From a virus, in IMG/VR virus record IMGVR_UViG_3300042384_000595, positions 1 through 24,063 of that record: 24,063 nt of DNA. One strand, written 5' to 3'. Below, piece after piece: positions 18,896-24,063 of this stretch (positions within the stretch are counted from its first letter, which is position 1; each line of letters starts with the position of its first letter). The position numbers and the translations under genes are program-made. The notes beneath the pieces are model-generated. The model did not search any database and was not told the origin of the DNA. It saw nothing but the letters and a program-made list of their open reading frames with translations.

Positions 18896-19042
18896 TTTTT
18901 AAGTTGTTGATCGTTACGGTGTTACGGGCTGGGAATGGTAGGTCTATCCCGCGCGACGCATCCCGATCGTTTTCAGGCCTGATCCGTAGGGTTCCCACTA
19001 GGGGGTTGGTTTTCAGTCACTTGCGAACCTGTTAGATCTAAC
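18896..19042 (-). promoter_or_regulatory. 147-nt gap before the terminase operon, with two GTTAC repeats
   Basis: No gene is visible here. Plus-strand GTTAC at 18913-18917 and 18921-18925 form a tight direct repeat (GTTACGGT GTTACGGG), the same pentamer that clusters at 21955-22295. The 12 nt before the small terminase ATG are A-rich. This is the natural place for a late promoter or for a packaging (cos) site, but I found no convincing -35/-10 pair and no clear cos-like symmetry. Confidence 0.4.
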
Positions 19043-21016: not shown

Positions 21017-21354
21017 AGTTGGTTGGTGTTGTCAGAGTTCGCTATCGGCTGCCGCGCCACAGCACAGGCGTTCGGCAGAGGAATCCAGAGCGTTGGTTCG
21101 CGTAGTTCGCAGACGGAAAAGCCCGCGTCCTCGTGGTATGCGCAGACGCTGGCCATGTGATCGAGTCCGTGAGCGGGCGGGCAATAGACGATAATATCCC
21201 GATCCTTCGGAGCATCCTCAATCGGCATCCATCCACCCATCTCTCGGGCGATGATTTCGGCGATGTCTGCCCGCTGGTTGTCTGGTAGCCCGAATTCGCG
21301 CAGATAATCCAATATCCGCGAGGTTGCGGCGATGGCTTGTAGTGGTGTTTTCAT
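21013..21354 (-). CDS. DUF551-like protein
   Basis: A 113-residue protein. After a helical N-terminus (AIAATSRILDYLREFG) and a short helix (QRADIAEIIAREMG), residues 42-58 read WMPIEDAPKDRDIIVYC, the hallmark of the DUF551 family, which then has a short beta domain closed by WIPLPNA (about 90-96). Function of DUF551 is unknown; members are frequent in phage early regions. ATGA overlaps join it to the MazG-like gene upstream and the 155-residue gene downstream, giving a three-gene translationally coupled unit. Confidence 0.75.
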   Translation of the reverse strand: MKTPLQAIAATSRILDYLREFGLPDNQRADIAEIIAREMGGWMPIEDAPKDRDIIVYCPPAHGLDHMASVCAYHEDAGFSVCELREPTLWIPLPNACAVARQPIANSDNTNQL

Positions 21355-21695
21355 GGTTTGTCCTTAATAAATTGCCCGCCGATCATTTTCCCGGTCCTGC
21401 CGGCGATCTCGTTATACGCCCCTTGTAAGCACCCCTGAAAATCCAGCCCGGCCATTTCGGCGGCTAGGATGAGAGTGACTGTGGTGTCGCCGATGCCGTC
21501 CTCCAGCTGTAAATAGGCGTCAACCATACCGGGCGACCCGGATTCATGCTGCGCCATCGCAACCGCAGCATCCCGCGTCTCGGTAAGCTCTTCCTGGCTT
21601 TTGCTGAGTTGCGCCAGAAGCGTCCCTTTGCCGTTTGGCCCGGTGATCCCCTTGGCGATCCCCCAGCTTTTCACTTGTTCAATCAGTTCGTTCAT
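21351..21695 (-). CDS. MazG-like NTP pyrophosphohydrolase
   Basis: A 114-residue all-helical protein with the MazG fold: SQEELTE at 33-39 supplies the first acidic metal-binding pair, and LEDGIGDTTVTLILAAEMAG (64-83) supplies Glu65, Asp66 and Asp70 of the second. The C-terminal AYNEIAGRTGKMIGGQFIKD is the usual closing helix. Such enzymes hydrolyse NTPs or dNTPs to NMP and pyrophosphate. In phages they adjust nucleotide pools or counter ppGpp signals; that role is known for the family, not shown here. Directly followed by the DUF551-like gene with an ATGA overlap. Confidence 0.8.
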   Translation of the reverse strand: MNELIEQVKSWGIAKGITGPNGKGTLLAQLSKSQEELTETRDAAVAMAQHESGSPGMVDAYLQLEDGIGDTTVTLILAAEMAGLDFQGCLQGAYNEIAGRTGKMIGGQFIKDKP

Positions 21696-21954: not shown

Positions 21955-22295
21955 GTAACCAGATGCAACAGACAATTTATGGAATGTGAGTCAGTTACGA
22001 TAAATACGGTCAGTTACAAGCCTGTTACGATGGACTGTAACAGGGTTAAATCGTTGATTTTCAGCTTCTTACCCTCTTTATTTATATTCAGTTACAGTAA
22101 TAGTACTATAGAGAGAGATCTACGAGGATATTTTTAGGTAGGGATATTTATAAGGGTGAGTATGATTTTCACTGTAACGCGTAACAGATTCATAAGTCGT
22201 TGGTTTGCAAGGATGTGTCGGTTACAGTTGTTACGATTTGGGGTAAAATCGGGCATTTTAGGCCCTAAATCGGGATCGTCACGGCACGCTGTAAC
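21955..22295. repeat. GTTAC/GTAAC pentamer cluster, candidate iterons or replication origin
   Basis: This stretch covers nearly the whole gap of more than 300 nt without a gene. Eleven copies of GTTAC or its complement lie at 21955, 21994, 22013, 22024, 22037, 22091, 22174, 22181, 22221, 22230 and 22291. Chance would give fewer than one in this length. Several extend to GTTACGAT (21994, 22024, 22230) or GTTACAG/CTGTAAC (22035, 22091, 22172, 22221, 22289). The stretch is more AT-rich than its surroundings and lies directly after the primase/helicase gene, which suits an origin of replication. Binding sites of a phage regulator would look the same. Confidence 0.6.
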
Positions 22296-24063
22296 ACGCT
22301 CGGGCCGAACCGAACCGGGTTTTTCGGGGTCAAAGCGCCCTCAACACGGAGTAATTGCCCCCTCCATTTTGCTCCAGACCATGGTGTATTTGCGAAAATC
22401 CGCTCCAAACCCTGATGATTATTGGCGATATGCACCGATTCCCGCCCGACATGGACCCCGATTCGGAGCATGGCCAACCCGTCAGGACCGGGAGTTGCCT
22501 CCATCCGCGCACGTTCGATGGCCTCGTCCAAGGTGATCGTTTCCGAGCCAAATTGCCTCTCCACCCGGATCGGCGAAGACAACAGGTGAGCGAGGCACTG
22601 GTTTTCATCCGAGTCTATCGCCTCCACCCTAAATCCTGACCAGTCCTGTTTCTCAAGCCACGCGACCGCCGCGTTGAGTGAGATCAGCTTTGAGGATGTC
22701 AGCGAAAATGCCCCGGCTAGCAATGTCCCCACCTGGTCGGCGCTGCGCTTGTCGCCGGTGAACGCCACAGCGGCCTCCGAGAATACCTCCGCGTTTGCTC
22801 GCGTCGTGATGGCGTTTCTGACCGCTCGCGCACGAAACCGGGAGCAATACGCGGGACTCGCCGCCGTGACCCGCCAGAGAGCCTTTACAGCATCAAATTG
22901 CGCTGGGTTGTTATCCTTGCGGAGCGACAGGACCGAGATGCGCGAGGTGTCGGCCTTTCTGACCGCCGCCACGCCGATGGACGCAAAGCAGAACATCGAG
23001 CGCACCATGTAGGTGATGCTGCCGCCGTTCTGAGTCCCTTTGACGATTCCGCCGCCGTCCTCGCTGGATGATTGGCGGGCAAGCTCGAGCACACCGTCCA
23101 TGCGCGGGATTGATCGTTGGTTTTCCGCCTCGGCCTCATCGAAAAGGACGGGAAGCGCATCGGACCCGATCCGCCCCCTTATCCCAGCCTCCGAGGTGTT
23201 GCCCTTAACGTAAATCGCGGATTTCCCGGCTAGCTGGTAGATGATGTTGCCCGTGATCCAGCTTTTGCCGGATCCAGAAGCACCCGTCACCCAGATGTGC
23301 GGCCTCCACATCAAAGCCCCGCAGATAGGTGCGAGTGCCATCCATCCGGCTAGGAGCTTGCCGAACAGAGGCTGGTCGAATGGTAGTGCATCGCAAAGTT
23401 CGATCAGTTTTGCGGACTCTACATTCCGTGACGCATCACCCGTGTCTATCGTGATCGACAGCCCACCCTCATAAATCGCCCTCGTCGGGGAATTGTAAGC
23501 AGGGATGGGGGTGATGGCGCCGTTGACCGCTAGCTTGCTGCCGGCGTGGTAAATCACATCCTCGCCGTCAATCCAGCATCCGCGTCCACGGATTGCGCGT
23601 GGGTCGAATTTGGGCAACGCCTGCGAGCATTGGATGAGCGAGTTTGCCGCCGCCTCCCAGTCGGTTGATGATTTGCCGGGAAAAACCTCCTCCCATGCTT
23701 GTAGCGGTGCAAGCTGCATCAGGTTCAGCTTGGAGTGGCCGCAGGGAGGGATGCTAACAATGTGCTGCCCGTTGTCGGGCATGTATCGCATCACGCCGTC
23801 ATCCATGCCGAGCAAGCGAAACGGCATGTCTTGGATCCGGTCCCGTTGGTTCAGATCGGCGGTGTCAGGCTCGAAACAATCCGGTTCATTGGAGTAGTCA
23901 ACCTCGGCAGTCTCGACGGTCGGGGTCCTGGGTTGAAATTTCTCCGCGTGGACCTTGGCGAGCTTCCTGACGGTTTTTCCCGAGTCGTCACCCCTAGCGA
24001 GTTCCGCCGTGAGTTGGTGGGTGAGTTTCTCGATGGTTAGCTGCCGGCTGTATTCCCAGAGCT
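22265..24063 (-). CDS. phage primase/helicase, ATPase part; 5' end beyond right edge
   Basis: The frame is open from the right edge, so the true start is outside the window; about 598 residues are visible. Near the middle is TGASGSGKS, a Walker A motif, preceded by MWRPHIW and followed about 40 residues later by PVLFDEAEAE, a Walker B. The segment before them (PFRLLGMDDGVMRYMPDNGQ ... KLNLMQLAPLQAWEEVFPGK) is one I know from phage bifunctional primase-helicases related to DUF927 proteins. The enzyme should unwind DNA and, if the hidden N-terminus carries a primase domain, start strands. It lies just upstream of the GTTAC cluster. The Walker motifs and partial state are seen; the primase half is inferred. 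Confidence 0.8.
   Translation of the reverse strand, partial: LWEYSRQLTIEKLTHQLTAELARGDDSGKTVRKLAKVHAEKFQPRTPTVETAEVDYSNEPDCFEPDTADLNQRDRIQDMPFRLLGMDDGVMRYMPDNGQHIVSIPPCGHSKLNLMQLAPLQAWEEVFPGKSSTDWEAAANSLIQCSQALPKFDPRAIRGRGCWIDGEDVIYHAGSKLAVNGAITPIPAYNSPTRAIYEGGLSITIDTGDASRNVESAKLIELCDALPFDQPLFGKLLAGWMALAPICGALMWRPHIWVTGASGSGKSWITGNIIYQLAGKSAIYVKGNTSEAGIRGRIGSDALPVLFDEAEAENQRSIPRMDGVLELARQSSSEDGGGIVKGTQNGGSITYMVRSMFCFASIGVAAVRKADTSRISVLSLRKDNNPAQFDAVKALWRVTAASPAYCSRFRARAVRNAITTRANAEVFSEAAVAFTGDKRSADQVGTLLAGAFSLTSSKLISLNAAVAWLEKQDWSGFRVEAIDSDENQCLAHLLSSPIRVERQFGSETITLDEAIERARMEATPGPDGLAMLRIGVHVGRESVHIANNHQGLERIFANTPWSGAKWRGQLLRVEGALTPKNPVRFGPSVLQRAVTIPI

Follow-up and report, generated by a model that had tools for sequence, protein, structure and literature searches.

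A putative phage replication origin built of dispersed GTTAC repeats behind a primase-helicase gene, with counterparts in other phages and in small plasmids

The window (the whole stretch of 24,063 bases analysed here, which is the entire virus record and probably a fragment) encodes a terminase large subunit and a portal protein and carries every gene with a family match on its minus strand. From the contig end, where the 5' end of the first gene is missing, the order is primase-helicase, a short non-coding stretch, a MazG-like gene, small genes, terminase and portal (Table 1). An earlier note on this DNA had placed a cluster of GTTAC pentamers between the primase/helicase and the early genes. 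The cluster does adjoin the primase-helicase, and the word early was presumptive for the other flank, on which the next same-strand gene with a family match is that of the MazG-like pyrophosphatase.

A recount of 21955-22295 (341 nt) returned the eleven copies of GTTAC/GTAAC that had been claimed, compared to 28 in the whole record, with six on the plus and five on the minus strand. The gaps between copies are irregular (7 to 83 nt) and the strands mixed, unlike fixed-period iterons, just as the earlier note had described. The copies fall into a group of five adjoining the primase-helicase stop, a second group of five on the far side and a lone copy within the AT-rich centre. The stretch is indeed AT-rich (61% AT, with a 60-nt peak of 72% near 22050-22140), but it is not wholly free of genes as had been stated, because the primase-helicase gene contains, at its 3' end, the copy at 22291-22295, so that the array begins in the last codons of that gene. 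An Rfam search at the array locus gave no match. Elsewhere in the window we observed two minor GTTAC groups, one of three copies within 35 nt (1845-1879) inside the 1238-3385 gene and one of two copies 8 nt apart (18913-18925) in an intergenic position on the terminase side.

Table 1. Features of the array locus and its flanking genes (window coordinates)
Feature	Position	Strand	Details
Primase-helicase, C-terminal 598 aa, Walker-type ATPase core	22265-24061	-	phrog_35358 DNA primase, E 1.1e-99
C-terminal winged-helix-like domain, proposed iteron reader	22268-22630	-	predicted model; switched-pair comparison
Iteron arm adjoining primase-helicase	22174-22295		GTTAC at 22174(-), 22181(-), 22221, 22230, 22291(-)
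Second IHF-like copy AACCAACGACTTA, in the arm adjoining primase-helicase	22193-22205	-	one mismatch to consensus; read directly from sequence, not scored separately
AT-rich centre between arms, candidate melting region	22042-22173		60-nt AT content up to 0.72
TATAGAGA, recurrent central word of related arrays	22107-22114	+	
Lone GTTAC within AT-rich centre	22091-22095	+	
IHF-consensus match AATCAACGATTTA	22047-22059	-	
Far iteron arm	21955-22041		GTTAC at 21955(-), 21994, 22013, 22024, 22037(-)
MazG-like pyrophosphatase	21351-21695	-	phrog_715, E 1.8e-22

The density of the array exceeds chance when the stretch itself is shuffled: 5,000 dinucleotide shuffles of the 341 nt contained 1.2 GTTAC on average and 6 at most, versus the 11 observed, and in 1,000 shuffles of the intergenic region the best count of any 5-mer was 10, never 11. 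When the whole GC-rich window is copied by a second-order Markov model, however, some 5-mer does reach 11-13 in 341 nt, so density alone is not decisive and the argument rests on relatives. Taken by itself, the window array scores 6.8, close to the value that marks the top 1% of control windows (6.9).

Relatives of the primase-helicase were collected by protein searches of IMG/VR, GTDB species genomes, phage records and plasmids. Some 170 family members were found, which were reduced to 122 loci by removing redundancy at 85% identity. With an array score cut-off of 7 or more, a dense short-repeat array is located just behind the gene in 44 of these 122 loci versus 23 of 1,921 control windows taken from other parts of these contigs (odds ratio 47, p 7e-41). 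The presence of the cluster in relatives that keep the primase-helicase had been set beforehand as a refutation test, and the cluster was present there at the same place, its position and anatomy being kept down to about 32% protein identity. The layout occurs in tailed phages, minimal plasmids and contigs from Pseudomonadota, Cyanobacteria and Verrucomicrobia genomes. About 60% of the non-redundant relatives have no array at the exact place behind the gene, some having one elsewhere (such as loci L153 and L108) and others none that we found, and most isolated phages with a primase at 30-39% identity lack an array directly behind it. Serratia phage MQ-4 carries 16 GTTAC in 41.3-41.8 kb, 1.6 kb downstream of the gene, and Acinetobacter phage Acjo_20 carries 12-13 copies at 3.07-3.5 kb, directly upstream of the helicase gene. 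Cumulative GC skew, the check that the earlier note had put forward, was uninformative in these two complete relatives, with no turning point at the array. A search for loci closely related to L087 yielded no addition. Dense arrays of other words (TGTTCCG, GTCTGGC, GTCCGGC and CGGTATT) were also seen 2-5 kb from the primase gene in L058, L082, L127 and L055.

The arrays share a recurring plan of two repeat arms, an AT-rich centre often with TCTCTATA, and IHF-consensus sites in the arms. In nearly all of them the repeats flank the AT-rich minimum on both sides. TCTCTAT (either strand) is situated mid-array, at a relative position of 0.35-0.68 in 21 of 23 cases, while IHF-consensus sites fall mostly in the two arms (24 in 58 zones versus 1.6 expected) and TATAGAGA is found in 13 of the 58 zones versus 0.2 expected. 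Within arrays, the positions of the AT minimum, TCTCTAT and the IHF sites are consistent. A second common word, near AACCCTTRTAGAATAA, occurs in or beside the arrays of the nearest relatives (L037, L038, L039 and L043) and is not evident in the window.

Full-length relatives of the window protein carry CHC2 zinc-finger, TOPRIM/DUF6371 or PriCT_2 modules ahead of the helicase. Across residues 79-598, the fold of the AlphaFold model of the window protein (pLDDT 90.7) matches SCCmec Cch (5dgk) best (Foldseek E 6e-8; Z 14.8, 417 aligned, rmsd 6.3), and NrS-1, the SaPI5 primase-helicase, pox D5/E5 and MCM follow as matches of the predicted model. The C-terminal 121 residues alone (pLDDT 95.5) display a winged-helix-like order of elements; in this predicted domain the top VIA row is SaPIbov1 Rep 447-549, with a weak Z of 4.3, and the next rows are winged-helix DNA-binding domains such as those of HSF and IRF. 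Foldseek alone returned no significant match for the C-terminal domain, and a sequence profile search of the PDB gave weak P-loop matches only. Pfam DUF927 was matched neither by eight full-length relatives (E<=0.1) nor by the window protein (E<=0.001), and no P4-specific Pfam domain was matched; TOPRIM or CHC2 was present in several full-length relatives, the window protein being truncated at its 5' end.

The repeated word differs by lineage. The window and its relatives use GTTAC, and other lineages use GTTACAC, GTGCC, GTTTGC, GTATGC, GTTGAC, GTCAGC, GTCCGC, GTCTGC, GTTGC, GTCAC, GTTCC, GTCCC or GTTAGA. On a helicase tree from which the C-terminal domain was left out, 27 word classes required 28 changes over 68 rows, at least 11 of them forced by well-supported branches, in a tree that was made by a quick method, has several long branches and carries word classes assigned by hand. 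GTTAC turns up all over the tree (29 of 68 rows) and, given this spread, may be an old default word.

Near-identical proteins can face arrays that are altered in every copy. First, at 92.7% identity between their proteins, L099 and L110 have origin regions that run parallel, with 11 GTTAC and no TGTATA in L099 versus no GTTAC and 12 TGTATA in L110. The two proteins differ consistently in the wing and tail of the C-terminus (LKID to LKII in the wing, and VRF..GIL to VKY..GIQ). L200 has the L099 word (TGTTACA) and shares most of the residues that separate L099 from L110; L201 has the L110 word (TGTATA), but is not independent of L110 because both lie on the same contig. Second, the protein groups that face GTTTGC and GTATGC arrays are about 90% identical and diverge at LFMDTSW versus LFENTSW. 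Over all arrays, word similarity correlates with similarity of the C-terminal domain (r 0.19, permutation p 0.002), weakly so after correction for the core (partial r 0.12, permutation p 0.049), while no contribution of the core is left after correction for the C-terminus (0.03, p 0.31). From these comparisons, helicase and repeats appear to change together.

The same structure is present on very small plasmids. On Arsenophonus nasoniae plasmids of 7.9-11.6 kb, a helicase without a primase module is the only recognisable replication gene, although the gene table of the plasmid collection is incomplete, and the lack of another initiator is thus not proven. Directly behind this helicase are 7-13 iterons in near-mirror arms around an AT-rich core. 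The words are TGTTACC, TGTTAGC, GGTTGTA and TGTAATGC, a different one per plasmid type, and plasmids of the same strain differ in word (paPv13 versus paPv15; paNv_CAN17 versus paNv_CAN18), as expected if the word sets replication identity. Some of the Arsenophonus plasmids are linear and several carry a telomere resolvase. In the set formed by NZ_CP123519, NZ_CP123517, NZ_CP123540, NZ_CP123558 and NZ_CP123541 (L214-L217 and L219, in that order), all very small plasmids of this species, three have small terminase genes, and in the four Arsenophonus plasmids examined, a conserved block richer in G+C comes after the array. The 19-kb Atlantibacter plasmid pLH84-a-B (L213, NZ_CP100496) carries an integrase, a CHC2 primase, the array and a terminase small subunit and looks like a phage satellite by its gene content; its arms differ, with GGTAACA in one and GGTAATA in the other.

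We infer with considerable confidence that the array region is the replication origin of the phage and that the adjacent primase-helicase is the initiator that reads the iterons. The C-terminal winged-helix-like domain would bind the GTTAC iterons of both arms, which IHF or a similar bending protein might fold together. Two helicase rings (a presumed number) would then assemble at the origin, the AT-rich centre would melt and the N-terminal primase module would prime. With the word being read by a fast-evolving domain, repeats and domain would be expected to change together and neighbouring replicons to stay orthogonal.

It is improbable in our estimation that the array is a true origin bound by another phage or host protein instead of the primase-helicase. 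DnaA or small phage proteins can be initiators, and the earlier note had entertained a novel initiator and had named a 69-residue product among the early proteins to be checked; the link between C-terminal domain and iterons is also statistically modest. Against such a binder, the replication gene that the phages share with the Arsenophonus plasmids and with the satellite-like Atlantibacter plasmid is that of the helicase, iteron switches accompany changes in the helicase C-terminus, and no DnaA-box match, allowing up to one mismatch, was detected from 20,712 to the window end. Moreover, the predicted fold is similar to that of SaPI-type Rep helicases, in which the C-terminus is known to read the iterons (PMC7581432). 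We judge the adjacent primase-helicase, rather than the 69-residue product or some other early protein, to be the most likely initiator.

The earlier note had left the choice between an origin and a regulator array, and it is for the origin that the relatives and the small plasmids provide good support, whereas the repressor gained no positive support. As an operator array, the repeats would be the binding sites through which a repressor, or an initiator that regulates itself, sets the transcription of the far-side genes. Autoregulation is also common among iteron replicons, gene blocks of the same strand flank the array on both sides, and weak promoter-like matches occur at 22282-22255 (-) and 22221-22249 (+), 2 versus 0.9 expected in a terminator and promoter scan of the locus that stayed near chance. 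Yet the arrays follow the conserved gene instead of preceding it, the arrangement of a dozen or so repeats about an AT-rich centre, with IHF-type sites in the arms, is the anatomy of an origin, and the same structure sits on 8-kb plasmids without another recognisable replication gene, on which grounds we rate an operator as unlikely as a different binder. Short repeats also occur at partition and packaging sites, but a site of this kind or a chance cluster is very improbable, given that shuffles and conservation exclude chance and that it is the helicase gene that the array lies behind, the terminase being more than 3 kb away in the window.

If the primase-helicase indeed reads the array, natural pairs of near-identical initiators that face entirely different iterons open to direct test how an initiator changes specificity in step with a dozen scattered sites, and such pairs offer sets of orthogonal replicons; the layout also points to origins in many unannotated phages. 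Whether these replicons form a widespread phage and plasmid class, in which one primase-helicase family serves an origin word of 5-8 nt that is rewritten time after time in all copies together with a few C-terminal residues to yield orthogonal replication groups, is in our view an evenly balanced question.

Several known initiators combine such parts. Both P4 alpha and pRN1 ORF904 unite several functions in one initiator and possess winged-helix DNA-binding domains (PMC4234260). As in P4 alpha, primase, helicase and winged-helix repeat-binding parts would reside in one protein, the last being predicted here, but P4-type Pfam domains are lacking and no distant second repeat cluster like crr was seen in the incomplete contig. 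The pRN1 origin lies directly downstream of the gene for a primase-helicase that ends in a winged helix (PMC4234260), an arrangement predicted here as well, except that pRN1 uses a 100-nt stem-loop and not iterons. Unlike a classical iteron plasmid of the RepE/RepA type, the locus has neither fixed-period direct iterons nor a DnaA-box match near the array.

SCCmec Cch, to which the model is most similar in fold along its full length, shares about 12% identity with it. The isolated C-terminal domain of Cch2 binds its putative origin, short direct repeats directly behind its own gene (PMC7581432), but that site has three iterons only, compared to 7-13 or more in two arms here. A close parallel is the Rep-ori organisation of SaPI/PICI elements, which a 2018 report described as absent from every other bacterial replicon then known. 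In PICIs the origin is found 3' of rep, with one iteron set on either side of an AT-rich region (PMC6092414), and the C-terminal domain of SaPI Rep binds the iterons (PMC7581432). Similarly, our arrays lie just 3' of the helicase gene, a likeness to SaPIbov1, SaPI1 and EcCICFT073 (PMC6092414) in position only, with two iteron sets around an AT-rich region, an element-specific iteron sequence and an initiator helicase with a (predicted) C-terminal DNA-binding domain. By contrast, they occur in plasmids and in tailed phages that encode terminase and portal, and not in satellites alone; their core is 5-8 nt, irregularly spaced and of mixed orientation, with added IHF-type sites; and the initiator belongs to another sequence family, without Pfam DUF927 and fused to CHC2/TOPRIM or PriCT-type primase modules. 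By analogy, array and primase-helicase may thus work like a SaPI/PICI Rep-ori replicon, in phages and plasmids and with a non-DUF927 initiator.
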